Source of the DNA: a virus
Virus record (IMG/VR): IMGVR_UViG_3300020437_001054
Span: 1 to 25,322 of that record
DNA length: 25,322 nucleotides
Reading direction: 5' to 3' (one strand)
Position numbers and translations under genes: made by a program. Below, in pieces: positions 6,953 through 25,283 of this stretch (its first letter is position 1; every line of letters begins with the position of its first letter). The notes under the pieces were generated by a model. That model saw only the letters and a list, made by a program, of their open reading frames with translations, was not told the DNA's origin and made no database searches.

Positions 6953-9739
6953 TTATTTGTCTTCTGAAGTTACTTTAAAATTTCCACTTTCATCTATTGT
7001 GATACGTTCATAATCAAACTTCGGTAACTCTACACCAGCTATTATATTCTCTTCACCTGTGTTTATAATAGGGTGAGGTTTTGCACCTTTCTGAATGATT
7101 TCTATTAAATCATCTACTTCTCTCCAAAAAACTTTCTCTCCACCATACAACCTTTCTTTACAAGCTACAATATATCCCAATGCCTTATTTAACTGAATAA
7201 TTGCCATTTCTTTAAAAGGCATGTATGCGTCACCAGCTGTCATACAAGCTCTTTCAAAACATATCTCAGCTGTTTCCATATCTCCTTCATTTACAAACTG
7301 AAGACCTAGTGATAACCATGCATGACCATTGTATTGATTATCTTCTAATTCCTTCACTAACATATTAGTATATGACTTTAACTTTTTACCCATTTTTTCC
7401 GGTGTATCGTCTAATCCTAGATTCAACCATGCATAAGGGAAGGCTTTTATAGAAGGAGATATACCATTAGCTTGTAACTCTTTTAAACTTTCATCTAAAT
7501 TCTCATGAACCCTAGATCGAAACTTCATGATACCAATTGGATCTACTCTAAACAATCTTATAGATTGACTTGTAGAAGCTGCAATATCTGATCCTTTGGG
7601 TAGTTTATTTTTATATGTAAACATGTATCCCCATGTATCATTCAACTCAACACACCTCTTTATAGACGCATTATTTTGAACATTTGAACACTTTAATGGA
7701 TTTTCATCAGGATCATAGAATAAAGCCCATGATATTCCTTTGGGTAATAGATCCTTCCTAATGTATTCTACTGCTTTATTTCTACATTCAGCTAAACCTT
7801 CATCTTCCACAAACTTATGAAACAACCATGTTACTTTATACATTTTAGCAAGGTATAATAACTTCTCACTTCTTTCTTCTTCTGAAGTCCACACCAATAC
7901 TATTTCATCACATACACTATACATTAAATCTAGTTTTTGAGCGATAAATTCTGTTTCCTCTTCTTCGTAACACAACATAAAACCACATATTCCATTGGCT
8001 GGATTGTATAGTTGTACTTTTACGTCATCAGCTTGGATAATATGATCATAAGTATCCTTCCCCAAAAATAACGGATTCTTCTCTTTATCTATATTGTCAT
8101 AAAACTTCTTTTTATGAAGTCTATCAATATTCCTTACATGACTCAAATGTCTAAATCTTATATTGCTAACTCTAATACCTATTGAGCTATATTCCGGTGA
8201 GTTACCACAGTGTAAACCTACCTCTTCAGATCCACTAACGATCCTTAATGGATTTTTTCTAGTTTTAAACAACCTTGAACCGGTCATACTTCCTTTTAAA
8301 TTTGATCCGGTTGTAAAAGGTTCATCTACCCTAACTAGATTCATTGTTTCCCAATGATTTATCCAGCTTACATGATACATACATACCAATGGATCAGGAT
8401 GTTTTACAAGTCTATTAAGATGATCTTTTGTTAATCTATCCTCAAATACTTCATCAGCGTCTATACTAAATATCCAATCAGCTTCCATTTTCTCAGCCAA
8501 CATGTGTGTTTTATTTCGTTCTTCACGTTCATTAAAACTCTTCCAATCGGTATAACTTAGATTACATTCTATTCCGTCTGTCAATATCGTTATATAGTTT
8601 TCAAAAGCTTCTATTATTTCATCTTCTTGATTACATTGTACTAGAGATTCTGCAAACTTTCTCTCTTCCGGTGGTAGACTATGTAGTAAGTTACTATCAT
8701 AACTATTTAATATCTCTTTTGGATTGTTTGTTAGTAGTATTGCGAAACCCTTCAAACCTATCTGTATTGCTCTTTTGATTGAACTTCTGAATTGAGCAAG
8801 ATCGTTTACACATTTAAAAGCAACTCTATAAGCTCCGATGACCTTTTGATCTCTCTGTGTTTCCTCTTCCCACTTCTTATAGAATACATCACGATTATGT
8901 AAACCACCTAATGTTTCTTTATAGTACTTGTTTAATGTACTATGGGCTTTGTGATCTATGAATGTATCTTTTACGATCAACATTTGATATCCAGCTTTTA
9001 TAGCACGATAACAAAGATCGTTGTCCTCGAAACCACCAATCTTAAAACGTTCATCAAACAAATGAAACTCGTTATTAACTTCTTCTATTAAATCATTCAT
9101 ACATTCTTGAGATATTGAAATACAAAAACCGGATAGAAAATCTGTTCTTAAATATTGACCATTCAATTGTACTCTATATTCTTTGGCAAACTTATCTAAT
9201 CCCATTGTCTTATAGGCTTTTATATTCCCTTCATTTGCTACATTCTGTTCTCCAGCTACTTCAAAAGAACAAGCACCTGTAATACCTACTTTTCCACCTA
9301 ACATATCTATGTCTACACTATCCCTTCCTAGCATAGATAAAGAGCTTGTTTGTGCCTTTTTGGTGGAGTGTGCATAGTATAATGATTGTTGCCAACCAGC
9401 TGTAACTATAGTGTCATCATTCAAGACGATTGTTTGATCAATAGTGTCTTTGTAGTAGTAAGTCTGTAAGTGTGTGATTCCCTTATTTACTGATCTTCCA
9501 AAACCTAGAGGAAGTGAAGACCATAATATTTTATATTCAAAATTTTCTGCTCCATAATCATTTTCAGCTTGTTGACATAGTACTTCTACTCTACTCCTTG
9601 TCTTATTAGCTTCGTCTAAATCCTTAGCATTAAAAGATAACACTAATGTTCCTTGTCCTCTCCAATGCTTTATGATTGACTCAACACAATTTTCTAAATG
9701 ACTAATTCCCATTGTAGGAATAACTATAGCAAATCTCAT
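6953..9739 (-). CDS. Three-domain glycosyltransferase (GT2/GT-A type) with TPR-like C-terminus
   Basis: A 928-residue protein with three GT-A-like units in tandem. The first (about 1-290) starts MRFAIVIPTMG, has the metal/nucleotide-sugar site LNDDT (108-110) and the GT2 acceptor-loop motif GGFEDNDLCYRAIKAGY (about 226-242). The second (about 300-590) carries FSIDADEVFED; the third (about 595-770) carries FYDPDEN. A TPR-like pair of helices follows (WLSLGLQFVNEGDMETAEIC). No membrane segment or signal peptide, so it acts in the cytoplasm on a nucleotide-sugar donor. The start has a near-perfect AAAGGAGG ribosome site. It lies among head-tail genes, which suggests that it decorates a virion protein; sugar transfer to modified phage DNA is an alternative given the nearby modification operon. 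The substrate is unknown. Confidence 0.85.
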   Translation of the reverse strand: MRFAIVIPTMGISHLENCVESIIKHWRGQGTLVLSFNAKDLDEANKTRSRVEVLCQQAENDYGAENFEYKILWSSLPLGFGRSVNKGITHLQTYYYKDTIDQTIVLNDDTIVTAGWQQSLYYAHSTKKAQTSSLSMLGRDSVDIDMLGGKVGITGACSFEVAGEQNVANEGNIKAYKTMGLDKFAKEYRVQLNGQYLRTDFLSGFCISISQECMNDLIEEVNNEFHLFDERFKIGGFEDNDLCYRAIKAGYQMLIVKDTFIDHKAHSTLNKYYKETLGGLHNRDVFYKKWEEETQRDQKVIGAYRVAFKCVNDLAQFRSSIKRAIQIGLKGFAILLTNNPKEILNSYDSNLLHSLPPEERKFAESLVQCNQEDEIIEAFENYITILTDGIECNLSYTDWKSFNEREERNKTHMLAEKMEADWIFSIDADEVFEDRLTKDHLNRLVKHPDPLVCMYHVSWINHWETMNLVRVDEPFTTGSNLKGSMTGSRLFKTRKNPLRIVSGSEEVGLHCGNSPEYSSIGIRVSNIRFRHLSHVRNIDRLHKKKFYDNIDKEKNPLFLGKDTYDHIIQADDVKVQLYNPANGICGFMLCYEEEETEFIAQKLDLMYSVCDEIVLVWTSEEERSEKLLYLAKMYKVTWLFHKFVEDEGLAECRNKAVEYIRKDLLPKGISWALFYDPDENPLKCSNVQNNASIKRCVELNDTWGYMFTYKNKLPKGSDIAASTSQSIRLFRVDPIGIMKFRSRVHENLDESLKELQANGISPSIKAFPYAWLNLGLDDTPEKMGKKLKSYTNMLVKELEDNQYNGHAWLSLGLQFVNEGDMETAEICFERACMTAGDAYMPFKEMAIIQLNKALGYIVACKERLYGGEKVFWREVDDLIEIIQKGAKPHPIINTGEENIIAGVELPKFDYERITIDESGNFKVTSEDK

Positions 9740-11046: not shown

Positions 11047-11931
11047 ATGATAATAGCTGATGACCATAAAAAATATGAAACTATCAATATTGTTTTACAT
11101 GGTAGTTTCTTACATTCAATACATAGAATAAATGATATACAACGTCATAAAGTCTTTTCAAAAACGGCTATGCGTTGTGTATTAAGTCCTCAATATTGGA
11201 AGGGTTCAGATAAGACGAAACAAAACCTACTACATTCTCTAGCTCTTAGAGGGTATGGATTAGACAATGGTGCTTACATAGATTACAATAAGGGTACTGA
11301 ATTTAATGGTGATCTATTTAAAGTCATGTGTAAAGATCTTGGTAATGGGTCTGATTGGATAGCTATACCGGATGTGGTTGGTGATAGTGTAGCAACACTT
11401 AAACAAGCTAGATACTGGTTTAATGAGCTTGAAAAGTTAGACCTTGACACAAACTTATTAATTGTTTGGCAAGATGGCATGACTCGTTCCGATCTACTTC
11501 CTTATATAAAAGACGGATATGGTGTTTTTGTTGGTGGAACAACGGAAGGGAAGTTGTCAGCTATTCCTATGGTATCCTCTTTGTGTCTAGAATATGGTGT
11601 ATGGTGTCATGTCGGTAGAGTAAACACTATGAGAAGAGTACAATATTGTAAAGCTCACAAAGTAAAATCTGTAGATGGAAGTGGTTTTTCAAGATTTCTA
11701 TGTTCACATAAACAATTTGTAAAATATATGAAATTCAAAGAAGAACAAATTAGCTTATTTTCTGAAAAAACATTAGATTTTACAGACTTAAAAACATTTG
11801 AACAAAGATTAAAAGTATTTGGTATTGATAAATCAGTATACGAACATATATTAACAACAAACACAGATTATATAGGATTGGGTAAAAATGAATACAAACA
11901 AAATAGTTCTTATCTCCGGTGGGATAGATAG
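11047..11931 (+). CDS. dpdA: DpdA-like DNA 7-deazaguanine transglycosylase
   Basis: A 294-residue member of the tRNA-guanine transglycosylase-like superfamily, close to the DpdA enzymes of phages. DpdA swaps guanine in DNA for a free 7-deazaguanine base such as preQ0. Motifs in order: LDNGAY (72-77), IPDVVGD (107-113), VWQDG (140-144), VFVGGTTEGKL (160-170), HVGRVNTMRRV (188-198) and KSVDGSGFSR (207-216), which together follow the beta/alpha-barrel pattern VPDVVGD / GQDG / GGTTEWKL / GRVNS / SVDG known from DpdA. The CxCxxC zinc site of true tRNA transglycosylases is not visible. The next two genes make the substrate (QueC, QueE), which strongly supports the call. The ribosome site is poor, so translation is probably coupled to the gene before. 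The last 44 bases overlap queC. Confidence 0.85.
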   Translation: MIIADDHKKYETINIVLHGSFLHSIHRINDIQRHKVFSKTAMRCVLSPQYWKGSDKTKQNLLHSLALRGYGLDNGAYIDYNKGTEFNGDLFKVMCKDLGNGSDWIAIPDVVGDSVATLKQARYWFNELEKLDLDTNLLIVWQDGMTRSDLLPYIKDGYGVFVGGTTEGKLSAIPMVSSLCLEYGVWCHVGRVNTMRRVQYCKAHKVKSVDGSGFSRFLCSHKQFVKYMKFKEEQISLFSEKTLDFTDLKTFEQRLKVFGIDKSVYEHILTTNTDYIGLGKNEYKQNSSYLRWDR

Positions 11932-12538
11932 TACAATATTAGCTACAAGAGCTGCACATGATAACGTTTTAACCGGTAATAAAACATTACTACTACATAT
12001 TAGTTATGATCACCCAGCTAGAGAAGTTGAAGAGATAGCTAGTTTTAATGTATACAAACATATAAATGATACTTATAAGAATACAGTAGAATATAAGTGT
12101 GTGAAGGTTCCAATAATCGCAAAAAGTATGTTTATAGGCAATAAAGAGAAGGGTGCAAGGGTTGTGCCTAATAGAAACTCTATAATGTTAAATATCGCTA
12201 TAAATGTCGCTGTATGTAATGATGTAAAGATTATTGAATATGGAGCTGTATTAGATGATCTGAATGATTATGTAGATTGTAGAAAAGAGTTTTTAGACAA
12301 GATGAATGATCTAGCTAGTGATTGGGGAGTAAAAATAGAAGCTCCTCTAATGAATTTAAATAAATCGGATGTTTTATATGAGATAGGTAGTGATGTAAGT
12401 TTAATTCATTGTTCTTCTTGTTACGAACCAAAACTATATGAAGATCGTTGGGTATCCTGTGGGGAGTGCAATAGTTGTATTAGTAATGGATTGTCATTTG
12501 GTTATCAACAAATAGTAAATACTATGAGAACATCATGA
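11888..12538 (+). CDS. queC: 7-cyano-7-deazaguanine (preQ0) synthase QueC
   Basis: A 216-residue QueC. It converts 7-carboxy-7-deazaguanine to preQ0 using ATP and ammonia. The PP-loop SGGIDS is at 10-15, VPNRNSIMLNIA at 93-104 and the substrate loop DLNDYVDCRKEF at 124-135. The four zinc cysteines are C178 (SCYE), C191, C194 and C197 (CGECNSC). The ATG at 11888 must be the start, because the PP-loop begins nine residues later; therefore the first 44 bases overlap the end of dpdA in another frame. The stop overlaps the queE start (ATGA). Length is normal for the family. It could feed a DNA modification (via DpdA) or host tRNA queuosine; the neighbour points to DNA. Confidence 0.92.
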   Translation: MNTNKIVLISGGIDSTILATRAAHDNVLTGNKTLLLHISYDHPAREVEEIASFNVYKHINDTYKNTVEYKCVKVPIIAKSMFIGNKEKGARVVPNRNSIMLNIAINVAVCNDVKIIEYGAVLDDLNDYVDCRKEFLDKMNDLASDWGVKIEAPLMNLNKSDVLYEIGSDVSLIHCSSCYEPKLYEDRWVSCGECNSCISNGLSFGYQQIVNTMRTS

Positions 12539-13164
12539 GAAAATATGCTATTAAAGAAATATTTTACTCCATACAAGGTGAAGGATATCATGTTGGTAAA
12601 CCAGCTATATTCATACGTTTTACTGGCTGTAACTTTTGGAATGGTAAAGAGAAGGATCGATCAAAAGCGATATGTAACTTCTGTGATACAGACTTTTTAA
12701 AAACTGACGGTCAAAATGGTGGTAGATATACATCATGTGACTTGATAGATAAGATTAAAACACTATCAAAGACTTGTAAATATGTTGTTCTTACCGGTGG
12801 GGAACCTTTGTTACAAGTAAATCATGACCTTGTAGAAAAGTTTAAAGAGAATGAATATTATGTAGCTATTGAAACTAATGGATCAAAGATACCACCAAAG
12901 AATATAGATTGGATCTGTTGTAGTCCGAAGTCATTAAACAAACTTAATATTATGGAAACTCATGAATTAAAAGTTGTTTATCCAGCTATTGATCCACTTC
13001 CTTATTCAAAACTTATAAAAGCACAACATTACTACATACAACCATTAGATCATATTGATCCGATAAAAAGAAAAGAGAATGTAAAGAAGTGTATCGAGTA
13101 TTGCAAAGAAAATACTAAATGGAAGTTATCAATACAAGCTCATAAATATCTTGAAGTTGATTAA
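12535..13164 (+). CDS. queE: 7-carboxy-7-deazaguanine synthase QueE
   Basis: A 209-residue radical SAM enzyme that turns 6-carboxy-tetrahydropterin into 7-carboxy-7-deazaguanine, the step before QueC. IQGEG is at 13-17. The iron-sulphur cysteines are C32, C47 and C50, that is Cx14CxxC, the variant with an insert found in many proteobacterial QueE proteins rather than the plain CxxxCxxC. TGGEPLL (87-93) is the SAM-binding GGE motif, followed by VAIETNG. The C-terminal Lys-rich helix is intact. It is translationally coupled to queC. Loss of QueD and FolE from this operon means that carboxy-tetrahydropterin must come from elsewhere. Confidence 0.93.
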   Translation: MRKYAIKEIFYSIQGEGYHVGKPAIFIRFTGCNFWNGKEKDRSKAICNFCDTDFLKTDGQNGGRYTSCDLIDKIKTLSKTCKYVVLTGGEPLLQVNHDLVEKFKENEYYVAIETNGSKIPPKNIDWICCSPKSLNKLNIMETHELKVVYPAIDPLPYSKLIKAQHYYIQPLDHIDPIKRKENVKKCIEYCKENTKWKLSIQAHKYLEVD

Positions 13165-19175: not shown

Positions 19176-20180
19176 CTATGCAGTAATTTGTGTAATTAAC
19201 GCAGCTCCCTTAGTATTAGAGAGTACACCGGCTCCGTCCCAGTACATATCAAATTGATCAAACTGTGATGAAGTCTTACTTAGAGGTAAGACCGTTGTAG
19301 GTGTCAATTCTGCAATATAGTTGTATCGAGTATTCAATACTAATAAACATGTAGCTGCACCGGAAGTATCTTTAATACAACCACTACCAAAGAAATTTAA
19401 GTTATTTGGAATGGCTGTAGATACTACCAAAGGAATTCCGTCATAGGTTCTTACTCTAAATCCAGCTGAGATTTCAACTACATCATTAAAACGTTGTTGT
19501 GCTTGCAAAGCTGCATTTACAGACCGGATACCGGCAAAAGAACCAACGATAACAAGATCACCACGTTGAGCTGATCCCTTAACTTTATCAATAGCTTCAT
19601 CTAGTTTACTCAAAGTAATAGGAGCTGGAGTTGTTGTATTCCCAGCGTTCGGTACTACTTGTGACATATCAAAGTTGTTTACTTGTTGAATGAGTGTTAA
19701 AAACCCAGCTGGTGCGTTTGCGTCTGCACTACCTAAAGAGTTAGCACTAATCAAACCCTCTTCAAGAGCATTTGCAAAGTCCTCAGCTTTTGCAGCCATT
19801 TCTAATGCTAGAATATCTGCGTAGGTTCTACCAGTAGCTTGCAATTTCCTTGTGATTTTTCCACGAGTTACCAAAGACTTGTAAGGGAATGATACCTGTG
19901 CGTAGGTTCCTGTTTCTTCTGTTACAGTAGTAACATCATCTAACCATAACGCACCATTTGTTCCAGCTTCTCTTCGATTGATATACTCAGCGTCACCTTG
20001 ACCAGCTCGTCTTGGCAATACTGCTTGTAATCCAAACTCACGAAGTGTTAATTGTTGTACTGTTCTATTGATAAAAGTTTGTAATAAAGCTGAACCGGCA
20101 TTACCGACGTTAATAGCACGTTCAAAACGTTGCTTTGTTGCGTCTGATGTACCTAACCAACTTGATCCTAAATTTGACAT
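19176..20180 (-). CDS. Major capsid protein (HK97 fold)
   Basis: A 334-residue protein. The N-terminal part is helical (TKQRFERAINVGNAG), followed by an extended loop region with VSFPYKSLVTRGKITRKLQA and the long spine helix (YADILALEMAAKAEDFANAL), then the P-domain helix and strands (ALQAQQRFNDVVEISAGFRV), and a final strand-rich part ending YWDGAGVLSNTKGAALITQI. This order is that of HK97-fold capsid proteins. It follows the protease/scaffold polyprotein, has a strong AGGAG ribosome site and is followed by a terminator, consistent with very high expression. No cleavable delta domain is evident in it; the scaffold is on the polyprotein. Confidence 0.88.
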   Translation of the reverse strand: MSNLGSSWLGTSDATKQRFERAINVGNAGSALLQTFINRTVQQLTLREFGLQAVLPRRAGQGDAEYINRREAGTNGALWLDDVTTVTEETGTYAQVSFPYKSLVTRGKITRKLQATGRTYADILALEMAAKAEDFANALEEGLISANSLGSADANAPAGFLTLIQQVNNFDMSQVVPNAGNTTTPAPITLSKLDEAIDKVKGSAQRGDLVIVGSFAGIRSVNAALQAQQRFNDVVEISAGFRVRTYDGIPLVVSTAIPNNLNFFGSGCIKDTSGAATCLLVLNTRYNYIAELTPTTVLPLSKTSSQFDQFDMYWDGAGVLSNTKGAALITQITA

Positions 20181-20207: not shown

Positions 20208-23200
20208 TTATGACCAATTTGTGTCTACGTTACCTAGTAAACCATCTTGTTCAGCTGATCTCAATCCACTACACAATAGATCCTTTAGAACATGAACAGA
20301 TACTTTATTAAGATTTGTTTCTTCACTCAATAGATCTGCATGACGTTTTACTACAGCTGATAGGGATACATACCCTTCTTTTGCACTACGTTCTACCAAT
20401 CTTTCTATAGCTGTAGTTGCTCCAATCCCTCTATGGATTTGACCTTGAACCATTCCGGTACGTTGTGGCTCTGACAATGCTCTTACAATAAGCTCATTTT
20501 GTTTCTCAATAATAGATCTCAATTCCGTTACTTCTGTAGGAAGAGTTTCTTTTACTACTTCTGTAACTTCTTTGGTATCATTCATTGTACTATTAGATCT
20601 TGATTCTAGTTTTTCAATTCTTTCAGATAATGGTTTTAAACCTTCTGAAATTGATCGACCTATAAGATCAGCCAAGTTTTTCATATCGTTATCATTCATG
20701 GAATTCTCCTTTATGTTTTCTGTTGATAGTATAACATTATTTTCTTCAATTAAATTTTCTTTTTTATTTTCTTGTTTGTTATCCCTTAATTCGGGCGTTT
20801 CTTTTTCAAACTTTGCATAATACTGACTCAATACATTATATATAGCTTCTCTTTCATCTTCCGGTACATCAACACCACCTCTAGCACCATTTAAAGCTCC
20901 CATAGCTGCTCTTACTCCATTCCATACTACTCTCAACTCTCCATTAATCATCAAAGCAATTGGAAGTTTATAAGCTGCTTTTGTTTCCGGATTAGCCTCA
21001 CTATCCATGTATAAGTGTGCCATAGCATAACGATCCCAATTATCTAAACCCTCACCTAATACTTCATCTTGTGTCGTTGTATTCCATTCAAAAGGTACGT
21101 CTTCAGCTGCTAAAGGCATATTATCATTAAAAGGCATTACATCTCTACCCTCTAATTTATCAAATGGACTATTTTCTATACTTTCCGGTGTAGCTGCCAA
21201 TTCTGTTTCCTCATCATCATTTGAAGCCATAATTGGTTCGTCTACTATACTATTATGATCCAATTCTCTATTCTCTGTTCTCTCATTTGCCAACTCATCA
21301 AATTTCATTTTTGAAGCTTCCATGACTTCCTTCATGTACTCTTCCATAAACTTCTCCATTTGCTCTTTCATTTTCTCTTTCATCTCTTCATGTTCCATGA
21401 GTTGTTCCATACCTTCCTTCATTTTCTCTTTCATCTCATGATCCATTAATTGTTCCATTTCCTCTTTCATCTTTTCTTCATAATGAGAATTCATTTCTTC
21501 TATCATTTCTTCTTTCATTTTTTCCTTCATTTCTTCTTCAAGATGACCACCCATATTCATTCTCTCTTTTTCAAAAGTAATGATATACTTATCCTCTGTT
21601 TCTTGTATCTCTGAAATACTTCTATTTGATATTTTATCTGACTCTTTGCGTACTAAATCTTCCACTTCTATCTTTTTGACTTCGGTGGATTCTTCCTTCG
21701 CTTGTTCTAATATCTCTTTTGATTTTGTTTCCATTTGTGATCTCCAATTTGTTAGTATTGTTGAAATAAGTGTACTATCTTTTGAATAAGTAGCCAACCC
21801 AACACTATCCGGATTAGCTGGGGCTCTCGTTATAGCAAGATGATCTAATGTCACTGACTTAATGATAACTCTCTCTATCTCACCTTCCATATTCTCTATG
21901 ACTTCCATATCATTAAACCAACCACCTATAGATTGACCTATAGGTTCTCCCCTTCTCAATCTTTTTACTAACTCTCTCGCTATAGCGTCTTCTCCATATA
22001 ATCTAGATCTAACCAGTAAACTATACTGTTTATCTCTATCATTATGTGGACTCACTACATCATCTTGTCTTATGTCAGCTTCATAAGTACGACCGATCAC
22101 CTCATCCCATTCAGCCATACCACCATTAGCTCTACTTGTATGTCTTGGTAATAATGGAATTCCTTTGGTCATTTGCTCTTGCATTTCCATTAATGCGTTA
22201 TAACTCATTTCCGTTCCATAACTATCTATGGAAGTACTACTAGCGATACCTTCAATAGAATAATACTTAGCTGGTCTTCCTCTTCCATTAATCGCCCTTA
22301 ATGATTCTTCTACGTCTATCTCTTCATCATTCTCATCAAAAGCTCTTACATTTATATCATTCATTCCAAACTGTATTCTATCTCTTCCCTCTATTCGATA
22401 AACCTTTGAACCATTCCTATTTATCTCACCCACACAACGAAACTCTAAACTTTCTGTTCCCATTTTTCTATCCTCTTGTTTGTTTATCTCTTCCCTTATT
22501 AAATCTTTCATGTACTTCTCTCCCCTCGATCCTATTACATACCACTTCATTTGTGCAACAACACCAGCTAACCTAAAATCCTCAAAATGCCTAGCTCCCC
22601 AAGCTTCTCGAAGTCTTATAGCCTCTTCGTCTGTTTCACTCTCTACGACCCCACCTTGATCTAAAACTTTTGTCAATCTACTATATTGTTTGTTGCCTAA
22701 TATATTTCCACCACGTTCCCATATACTTGGATAATCTGACTTTATCATATCAGCGAAATCACGATCAAATATGGGATACTCACTATTCCGTAATGATACT
22801 TTTAAATCATCACCGGACTTAGGAAAGTTTGTAGGATCTACATCACCTACTGCTCTATCCCCTTCTCCACTCATAGGGTGACTCTTAGGCAATAAATCAG
22901 TGTCATGCTTGCCACTTCTAAATCTACCATTCCTCAACGCATATAAAAAACTGTTTATCCGAGCAATAGCCCACTGTTGAGCTGAGGTTACTGTGGGGCG
23001 AACACTCTCCGGATTTGTATTGTAAGCTCCGATCCCTCTCCAATATACCATAGCTAAAGTTGGTGGGGTTGTTCTCTTACTATTATCCGATCCTACCTCT
23101 TCATTATGCTCTTTTGCTTTATTATCAACGACCTTCTTTGTGGTTTCATTCAAAGCCTCATAAGCTTCCTTCTTGGTCTTAAATCTATCCTCTTGACGTT

Positions 23201-23732
23201 GATGTATCATATCCTCTGTACTTTCTTCGTCTTCACTATCTCTTTCTGTAGATCGACCCTCTGAAATAAAAGATATCTCTCCACCCATTCCACTATGATT
23301 TACACAATAATAATATAATGTCGGTGTTTCATTAGAAGTGTTTAATACTAATTGATGTTCCCTTGTTCCTACTTCTCCTATCCTTTCAACACCAGTTGTA
23401 TATTCAACTCCACCATTATGAGTACCATCTTGTGTAATACTAAAAGCCATTTGATGATTTATGTTACTCTCAGCTTGTTGCATAAATACATACTTGAATC
23501 CACTTAACAAAGACAACCTTTCATGCCTTTTTCCATTCATATAATACTTGCCACTTACTACACTAACATATAATCTTCTATCATACTCATCTGAATCAAT
23601 CCCACCACTAGGAACTTTATCTATAAAAATATCTCCTACCGATCCGTCTAATTCTCGAATTGAATAATCTCCACTCTTCAAGACTTCTCGTAAAGCTGTT
23701 TCTAATACTGTTGATGATATAAACATTTTCAT
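20208..23732 (-). CDS. Prohead protease-scaffold polyprotein with cupredoxin-like N-terminus
   Basis: A 1174-residue protein, far longer than a typical prohead protease (about 200-250). The ATG at 23732 is chosen: GGA lies nine bases upstream, and the GTG at 23750 has none. Parts in order: a cupredoxin-like domain (about 60-160; H93 and C143-x2-H146-x2-M149 in YYYCVNHSGMGG); an uncharacterised module (about 195-420; RGIGAYNTNPESVRPTV and WERGGNILGN); the S78/U35 protease (about 430-645) with YSIEGIASS, PLLPRH, SIGGWF and LDHLAITRAPANP; a Met/Glu/Lys coiled coil (about 729-814); a module with GVRAAMGALNGARGGVDVP (about 900-985); and a C-terminal scaffold-like helical part. It would assemble with the capsid protein in the prohead and cut itself. 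The individual call for the protease is firm; the roles of the other modules are inferred. Confidence 0.88.
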   Translation of the reverse strand: MKMFISSTVLETALREVLKSGDYSIRELDGSVGDIFIDKVPSGGIDSDEYDRRLYVSVVSGKYYMNGKRHERLSLLSGFKYVFMQQAESNINHQMAFSITQDGTHNGGVEYTTGVERIGEVGTREHQLVLNTSNETPTLYYYCVNHSGMGGEISFISEGRSTERDSEDEESTEDMIHQRQEDRFKTKKEAYEALNETTKKVVDNKAKEHNEEVGSDNSKRTTPPTLAMVYWRGIGAYNTNPESVRPTVTSAQQWAIARINSFLYALRNGRFRSGKHDTDLLPKSHPMSGEGDRAVGDVDPTNFPKSGDDLKVSLRNSEYPIFDRDFADMIKSDYPSIWERGGNILGNKQYSRLTKVLDQGGVVESETDEEAIRLREAWGARHFEDFRLAGVVAQMKWYVIGSRGEKYMKDLIREEINKQEDRKMGTESLEFRCVGEINRNGSKVYRIEGRDRIQFGMNDINVRAFDENDEEIDVEESLRAINGRGRPAKYYSIEGIASSTSIDSYGTEMSYNALMEMQEQMTKGIPLLPRHTSRANGGMAEWDEVIGRTYEADIRQDDVVSPHNDRDKQYSLLVRSRLYGEDAIARELVKRLRRGEPIGQSIGGWFNDMEVIENMEGEIERVIIKSVTLDHLAITRAPANPDSVGLATYSKDSTLISTILTNWRSQMETKSKEILEQAKEESTEVKKIEVEDLVRKESDKISNRSISEIQETEDKYIITFEKERMNMGGHLEEEMKEKMKEEMIEEMNSHYEEKMKEEMEQLMDHEMKEKMKEGMEQLMEHEEMKEKMKEQMEKFMEEYMKEVMEASKMKFDELANERTENRELDHNSIVDEPIMASNDDEETELAATPESIENSPFDKLEGRDVMPFNDNMPLAAEDVPFEWNTTTQDEVLGEGLDNWDRYAMAHLYMDSEANPETKAAYKLPIALMINGELRVVWNGVRAAMGALNGARGGVDVPEDEREAIYNVLSQYYAKFEKETPELRDNKQENKKENLIEENNVILSTENIKENSMNDNDMKNLADLIGRSISEGLKPLSERIEKLESRSNSTMNDTKEVTEVVKETLPTEVTELRSIIEKQNELIVRALSEPQRTGMVQGQIHRGIGATTAIERLVERSAKEGYVSLSAVVKRHADLLSEETNLNKVSVHVLKDLLCSGLRSAEQDGLLGNVDTNWS

Positions 23733-23790: not shown

Positions 23791-25263
23791 TTAATCCAAA
23801 ACTGTTTCATCATAATCAGTAGGTTTTACCGGTTCAACTGTTACCTCTACCCTTCCACCGTCTAAATCACTACTTCCACCCTCTAAACTTATACTATCAG
23901 CTTCTCCTAAATTCTGTACCGGTGTAGGCATACCAGCTACTTCCATTGTTGCTACATCACCACCAAATATAGGCAATAATCCCAATTCTTCTCTTACCTC
24001 ATTCCTCGTCATTACTCCATTCCTTACATATATCTGATGTTTCGTTGCTAACTTTTGCATGTCATCTGCATTTAATCTAGCTTCTCTATCAAATCTAAAT
24101 CTAATCTCCTTCGCTATCTCATTCCCAAACAACAAAGGCAATACCCTTGTATTTATTTTTGATTGTAACAATTCTAATATCGGTGTCACCAAATGACTAC
24201 TAGAAACATCCAATTGAGCTTGAGCTGTCGCTCTATTTATTCCGTCACTTATACCCATTTCTACAGGTTGCACTCCAAAAACACGATATACAGCTCTCCT
24301 AATATCACCTATCAACTCTCTCATTTCTATATCTTTGGGTGTCCTCTTTAACTCTAACCACTTCGCACCTACACCACTCGGATCCGGTGTCGTCATTACC
24401 CTTATCTTATGATCTTGACCCCTCAACATTTGCATATCTGCTTTAGCTTCATTTGCCGCCCTTCCACTTATACCAGCTAATACTAAAATGCCCGGCGGTA
24501 TCTCATCAGCATCCAAACTCAACATAGCATGTTGACTACCTCGCATTAATGCTATTACTTCATTTACCAAAGCTTCTAATAACGGATTTCCTATATTATC
24601 CGTTGTATTCGGATATAAACTAAAAAATAATAACTGATTAGGTTTAAACTTGATTACACTCGTAGGAGTTGATCCCATTGTACCAACATAATCACCATTA
24701 CTATACATGTTCTGTTCATAATTGATTATCCTTCCATGTTCATTCATTACAGGATTTACTGTGGATCCTCGCAAGGGTACTAACTCACTTAACTGTTTGT
24801 TCTTATCATAAACTATCTCTATAGCTCCCCTATCATATACCAGTACATCAGTTAAAAATGCCGTCATAATCTCTTGCCATGTATCTCCATTCTTACTAGG
24901 CATACTTAAAAATGATGTTCCACTCTTACATATATCACTTAAATCCTTCCACCCTTCCTCTTGTGGTGATCTCTTCGGTTCTACTACCCAATCAAATGTA
25001 GCTACTCTCCTTACTATACTATCTATAGAAGCCCTTACATCACTACAACGTCTATATATCTCCCACAATTGACCGTCTGATAACTCCCTTGTTGTTCTCT
25101 CATAATCTCCACCATATAGAACATCACTGCCACCATACAAATCCGTATAATAATGCAAACCCTTTCTAGCTCTATTTGCTATTCCACCCCACGAACCACG
25201 ATCTATTCGCTCTAATGTCTTTTTTCCTATCTCTATCCTTCTATTTGCTATCTTTATACTCAT
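23791..25263 (-). CDS. Portal protein
   Basis: A 490-residue protein that forms the dodecameric DNA gateway at the capsid vertex. It has the portal architecture: an N-terminal wing (LWEIYRRCSDVRASIDSIVR), a segment with YDRGAIEIVYDKNKQLSELV and a strand with LVPLRGSTVNP, then NQLLFFSLYPNTTDNIGNPL, a long clip-stem helix (EALVNEVIALMRGSQHAM), and the C-terminal GINRATAQAQLDV and NGVMTRNEVREELGL motifs that are hallmarks of HK97-type portals. The ATG at 25263 is preferred to the GTG at 25266 because GGAG lies six bases before it. The tail is Asp/Glu-rich. It precedes the protease/scaffold polyprotein, the normal order. Confidence 0.92.
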   Translation of the reverse strand: MSIKIANRRIEIGKKTLERIDRGSWGGIANRARKGLHYYTDLYGGSDVLYGGDYERTTRELSDGQLWEIYRRCSDVRASIDSIVRRVATFDWVVEPKRSPQEEGWKDLSDICKSGTSFLSMPSKNGDTWQEIMTAFLTDVLVYDRGAIEIVYDKNKQLSELVPLRGSTVNPVMNEHGRIINYEQNMYSNGDYVGTMGSTPTSVIKFKPNQLLFFSLYPNTTDNIGNPLLEALVNEVIALMRGSQHAMLSLDADEIPPGILVLAGISGRAANEAKADMQMLRGQDHKIRVMTTPDPSGVGAKWLELKRTPKDIEMRELIGDIRRAVYRVFGVQPVEMGISDGINRATAQAQLDVSSSHLVTPILELLQSKINTRVLPLLFGNEIAKEIRFRFDREARLNADDMQKLATKHQIYVRNGVMTRNEVREELGLLPIFGGDVATMEVAGMPTPVQNLGEADSISLEGGSSDLDGGRVEVTVEPVKPTDYDETVLD

Positions 25264-25283
25264 CACTATCTCCTTTTTTCTCT

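Follow-up and report, generated by a model that had tools for sequence, protein, structure and literature searches.

Organisation of the locus

The window, by which we mean the whole stretch of DNA that was analysed, is an entire IMG/VR virus record, 25,322 bases long. Its minus strand carries one unbroken open frame of 1174 amino acids (20208-23732), located between the genes for the portal and major capsid proteins (Table 1). The preliminary description of this DNA had read the frame as a copper-protein-like domain and an uncharacterised module, followed by a head protease, a Met-rich coil, a further module and a scaffold-like end, and all of the parts from the protease onwards were recovered within the 1174 residues. 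In the predicted model of the full-length chain, ordered islands are separated by low-confidence or disordered linkers, and two candidate internal start codons (see below) fall within these linkers or just at their border. A fold search with this model returned mainly cupredoxin or Ig-like matches. A plain protein scan with the whole chain found no relatives, and we therefore used single modules and alignments as queries.

Table 1. Features of the 1174-residue frame and its neighbouring genes
Feature	Positions	Strand	Remarks
Whole frame	20208..23732	-	1174 aa + stop; leader (tip, cupredoxin, M2a, M2b), protease, Met/Glu-rich coil, C1, C2 scaffold-like end; basis: orthologues
Portal protein gene, upstream neighbour	23791..25266	-	
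Major capsid protein gene, downstream neighbour	19176..20180	-	
N-terminal tip, residues 1-49	23586..23732	-	Short helix, mostly disordered; present in the cupredoxin-less L107
Cupredoxin domain, residues 50-158	23259..23585	-	AlphaFold, fold matches, ligand conservation
Putative copper ligands	H93 23454-23456; C143 23304-23306; H146 23295-23297; M149 23286-23288	-	
M2a helical module, residues 176-290	22863..23207	-	Weak Pfam DUF5824 match
M2b module, residues 294-418	22479..22853	-	
Putative internal ribosome-binding site and ATG (M424, ATG 22461-22463)	22461..22475	-	Leader/protease border
Prohead protease, S78-like, residues 490-655	21768..22265	-	A2 alignment; Pfam S78 matches among relatives
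Candidate catalytic residues	H531 22140-22142; S601 21930-21932	-	
Met/Glu-rich predicted coil, residues 730-815	21288..21545	-	Length varies among orthologues
C1 module, residues 865-985	20778..21140	-	
Putative internal ribosome-binding site AAAGGAG and ATG	20699..20712	-	M1012 begins at 20699
C2 scaffold-like helical end, residues 1012-1174 + stop	20208..20699	-	Probably also made alone

Elsewhere in the window, adjacent QueC-like and QueE-like genes (11888-13164, plus strand) suggest a 7-deazaguanine pathway, possibly for DNA modification, and a 928-aa protein encoded among the structural genes (6953-9739, minus strand) matches glycosyltransferase family 2 (Pfam Glyco_tranf_2_3, 5e-11).

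The N-terminal domain is predicted to be a cupredoxin

Four residues had been put forward as type 1 copper ligands, and H93, C143, H146, and M149, counted from the ATG at 23732, are indeed present, in the segments NINHQMAFS and YYYCVNHSGMGG. The proposed kinship with proteins of marine phages likewise held, in that residues 55-157 matched baseplate, tail fibre and virion proteins. A structure prediction had been suggested as a check on the fold; when it was run with AlphaFold and 60 homologues, a cupredoxin fold was obtained with high confidence, as a nine-strand sandwich with a pLDDT of about 95 across most of residues 50-157. The top Foldseek matches among solved structures were all cupredoxins (AcoP, rusticyanin, and amicyanin), and VIA-align to rusticyanin gave a Z of 8.7 and an rmsd of 2.8 Å over 101 residues. 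At the level of sequence, a search of the PDB found no solved relative of the domain, Pfam Copper-bind gave weak matches only (9/60 members), and hhalign placed the C143/H146/M149-type Cys, His, and Met on C92, H95, and M98 of amicyanin at low probability. The cupredoxin fold and ligand set are those of a prediction rather than of a solved structure, and the copper site is putative.

An earlier count, in which the ligands were present in 63/63 domains, came from a search pattern that already contained the Cys and His. Because this biased the count, the scan was made with a query limited to the domain's first half, i.e., with a pattern lacking the Cys-His-Met part. C-x2-H-x2-M was then found in 77/78 domains and the upstream His in 78/79. 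The sole exception (L229, 1930-2238, plus strand) has exchanged the upstream His for Asp and the Met for Leu together, whilst keeping the Cys and the second His. Joint loss of His and Met is what a shared metal site predicts and, albeit as a single case, it suggests, together with the near-invariance of the ligands, that the metal site itself is selected.

The protease is S78-like

The protease gene is found between those for the portal and the major capsid protein, as S78 gene order requires, and H531 and S601 occur in the right order and are invariant in the five sequences of alignment A2. On its own, the window protein falls below the Pfam S78 model (no match at E 5). Of the 42 members of alignment A5, 19 match the model at E up to 0.1 (best 2.4e-5), and hhalign of the protease to S78 gave a weak result.

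Orthologues and a close relative lacking the leader modules

The same order of tip, cupredoxin, M2a, M2b, protease, C1, and C2 was found on four other contigs at 69-79% identity, which represent three distinct proteins (L003; L013 and L014, which are identical; and L015). For cupredoxin, M2a, M2b, and protease alike, dN/dS was estimated at about 0.1; the cupredoxin values were about 0.09-0.13 in the three pairs that could be estimated, similar to the protease. Judged by these ratios, the architecture is under purifying selection.

A further relative, L107, has a protease that is 83% identical to that of the window and the same N-terminal tip and SEDSTEDM linker, but lacks exactly the cupredoxin, which in the window precedes this linker, and M2a-M2b, which follow it. 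Residues 822-833 (about 21230-21270, minus strand), in a region predicted to be disordered, carry the short conserved motif RELDHxSxVxEP, which is recognisable in L107 and L013 as well and could be a cleavage or docking site.

Homologues of the cupredoxin domain are mostly found in tail proteins, and one might thus imagine that a frameshift or an assembly artefact had joined a tail-type gene to a protease gene. We regard this as extremely improbable and have discarded it, since the same fusion recurs on the four other contigs and its modules are under purifying selection; the precise module borders seen in the comparison with L107 also speak against it.

The leader modules recur beside portal, MuF and protease domains

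In a survey of protease relatives, dozens of loci without a cupredoxin had the core of protease, C1, and C2 flanked by the portal and major capsid protein genes, and among these relatives only the lineage of the window has a cupredoxin ahead of this core. The other modules are also found in different company: M2a is part of portal-MuF fusions and also precedes other head proteases; M2b separates portal and MuF domains in some phages and follows an S78 protease or precedes a protease in others; and C1 lies inside portal-linked modules and in protease/MuF fusions of Streptomyces phages. At two loci (L116, 4773-6683, minus strand, and L117), the cupredoxin is located on the C-terminus of the portal protein itself, with the motif C-x-H-x3-M instead of C-x2-H-x2-M, the second His being displaced by one position. 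Both the placement of the leader modules near portal, MuF, and protease domains and that of the cupredoxin on the portal point to the portal vertex. The cupredoxin is an exchangeable add-on, carried by many marine phages close to their head or tail proteins.

M2b and M2a also precede an S78-like protease in the hypersaline Salinibacter phage B2_17 (L002, 7518-10085), and this type of arrangement occurs in >180 near-identical Salinibacter phage records.

A second group of head genes with a cupredoxin

The preliminary description considered a cupredoxin in front of a head protease to be unusual, and proposed a domain-order survey of related proteases. That survey revealed a shuffled module order and repeated instances of the placement. 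Besides the two portal fusions, a cupredoxin precedes an S78 protease fused to the major capsid protein at 41 other marine loci, some of them near duplicates, and stands there with M2a, M2b, or a third module, E2, in several orders. The supposed rarity of the arrangement is contradicted by these loci. In phylogenetic trees, the cupredoxins of this fusion group and those of the window's group fall into separate, well-supported clades, yet a single clade was not rejected by the AU test (p-AU 0.127). The trees favour two independent recruitments, which given this p-value we do not claim as demonstrated; recruitment of cupredoxins into heads more than once is likely.

The cultured Roseobacter phages CRP-811, CRP-406, and CRP-831 share these leader modules but have no cupredoxin. 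Gene boundaries also vary. In the Roseobacter phage CRP-823 (L254, 2369-5297), leader modules E2 and M2a form a separate gene that overlaps the protease-capsid gene, whereas in CRP-831 they are one frame. Cultured Roseobacter phages have strong ribosome-binding-type sites ahead of the capsid protein. A small two-strand element, RxIxxVxETxDxYxIxFxK, is found between modules in both head groups (residues 706-722 in the window, 21567-21617, minus strand; also L036, L019, L120, and the CRP phages).

Internal start signals and probable nested products

Two in-frame ATG codons at module borders within the window's frame are preceded by strong Shine-Dalgarno-like sequences: M1012, ahead of the scaffold-like end, by AAAGGAGAATTCC, and M424, ahead of the protease, by AAGAGGATAGAAAA. 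An ATG is located within 6 residues of the start of C2 in 33/37 distinct relatives. The energy of pairing to the anti-Shine-Dalgarno had a median of -6.4 at these codons versus -2.6 at other Met codons (p = 8e-15), calculated with the canonical sequence, which may not be that of the host; a protease-based scan of the genome collection found no prophage or host. Among L107 and the orthologues, energies at the M424-type sites ranged from -5.8 to -9.1, and the genes of plain relatives start at about the position of M424. The start of the full frame in the window has a weak site (-3.3). A few further internal Met codons, e.g., M408, likewise have strong Shine-Dalgarno-like stretches.

Since linkers that are rich in Glu and Lys can mimic ribosome-binding sites, we examined codon choice with the amino acid held fixed, as the share of GAG among Glu codons. 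GAG was used in 29/43 cases at the C2 site versus 41% elsewhere (p = 5e-4), in 4/4 at the M424-type sites (p = 0.005), and in 24/30 at the leader/protease border of the protease-capsid fusions versus 15% (p = 8e-15), with the caveat that these p-values overstate independence because the rows are related. In terms of sequence signals, an in-frame internal start with a putative ribosome-binding site is present before the scaffold part.

The gene probably makes nested products from M424 and M1012, such that only some chains carry the cupredoxin. The preliminary description envisaged a single polyprotein, from which the front either is or is not cut off during maturation. Its fusion of the domain to a protease with a scaffold-like end stands; in place of its single product, the internal sites suggest nested ones, and the cupredoxin is therefore probably missing from many chains, whether these are cleaved or not.

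A proposed role for the cupredoxin

From the architecture, predicted fold, conserved ligands, modular gain and loss, and internal start signals, we infer a modular head-maturation gene with nested products, whose leader chain enters the prohead near the portal and whose cupredoxin is an add-on for contacts. We consider this reading about evenly balanced between right and wrong. The core of the gene would be an S78-like prohead protease followed by C1 and the scaffold-like end, in front of which a leader comprising the cupredoxin and the helical M2a and M2b was added in the window's lineage. Three products would arise by way of M424 and M1012, namely, a minority full chain with the leader, a protease-C1-scaffold chain, and the scaffold by itself. 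Alongside protease and scaffold, the chain with the leader would pass into the prohead, and its small β-sandwich, probably metal-bound, would serve protein contacts until later freed by proteolysis, after which it may be retained in the head or lost. The same modules associate repeatedly with portal, MuF, and protease, and it is on this basis that we place the site of action at the portal vertex or in the inner core.

The occurrence of homologues in tails and baseplates counts against this explanation, since it shows that the domain is not confined to heads. Tail fibres, baseplate wedge and other virion proteins account for most homologues, module order is freely shuffled, and the close relative L107 manages without the domain, so the cupredoxin might be a structural add-on of a generic sort, comparable to the Ig-like domains found in phage tails, in which any metal would stabilise the fold only and the placement before a protease would be incidental shuffling. 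A generic add-on of this kind, which we think rather unlikely, does not sit easily with a ligand set that is kept in all domains except the one that lost His and Met together, nor with the retention of the cupredoxin near the portal vertex in two head lineages and on a portal.

The full H, C, H, M set with its amicyanin-like spacing and the association with internal head proteins would also suit a copper carrier, i.e., a cargo that is copper-loaded in the host and cut loose in the prohead, then retained by the capsid until its delivery with the DNA for redox chemistry or copper handling. Such a cargo is possible, but we hold it to be improbable: the presence of the same domain in tail fibres speaks against a role specific to heads, and phage heads assemble in a reducing cytoplasm where free copper is scarce. 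We are similarly doubtful of a functional type 1 copper protein inside marine phage capsids, made as a minority of protease chains by way of the internal starts, copper-loaded, freed by the protease near the portal, and then delivered or acting in redox reactions at genome ejection. The most economical reading of the domain's role is that of a contact module stabilised by metal.

This metal-protein-like domain is widespread in marine phages. Two head lineages have it near the portal and a close relative precisely lacks it, which, along with the nested start signals, makes its role testable. The idea is worth testing because of the nested-start reading and because the window and L107 form a natural presence/absence pair. 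More broadly, our analysis suggests that head-protease "polyproteins" of marine phages are stacks of nested products, for which labels such as one protein or "major capsid protein" mislead. Metal in marine phage particles is already relevant to ideas on trace-metal cycling, by way of iron in tails (PMC11705849).

Comparison with known systems

A literature search, with subscription papers outside its scope, found no cupredoxin in a phage head; the nearest ideas found were cupredoxin-bearing enzymes near encapsulin shells (PMC6934571) and the iron of marine phage tails cited above. The fusion described here is new as a variant and is not a unique oddity. The likeness to amicyanin, rusticyanin, and AcoP lies in the predicted fold and in the H, C-x2-H-x2-M ligand set, with C143/H146/M149 spaced as are C92/H95/M98 of amicyanin. 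The window's domain differs from these cupredoxins in its very low sequence identity, its place inside a phage structural protein, and its putative copper site, and no recognisable export signal was found in the window protein.

Direct homologues, 36-46% identical and with the same four ligands, are the marine phage tail and baseplate domains phrog_27200, phrog_708, and phrog_30742, which are found in tail or virion proteins, whereas that of the window is in a prohead protease. Marine S78 protease-capsid fusions (phrog_617 and phrog_4523; e.g., L036 and L068) share with the window a cupredoxin and M2a/M2b ahead of a head protease and an internal start signal at the border, but differ in that the capsid protein follows their protease in a direct fusion, their modules are in another order, and their cupredoxins form a clade apart in the trees, with a single clade not rejected by the AU test.

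In phage lambda, Nu3 is nested in gene C, and the protease is of another type than S78-like. The window gene likewise encodes a protease with a scaffold-like C-terminus and a probable internal start between the portal and capsid genes. The lambda C, Nu3, and portal proteins form an initiator of protease, scaffold, and portal (PMC3224144). Compared with lambda C/Nu3, the window gene has an additional leader, made up of cupredoxin and M2 modules, as well as a further putative internal start.
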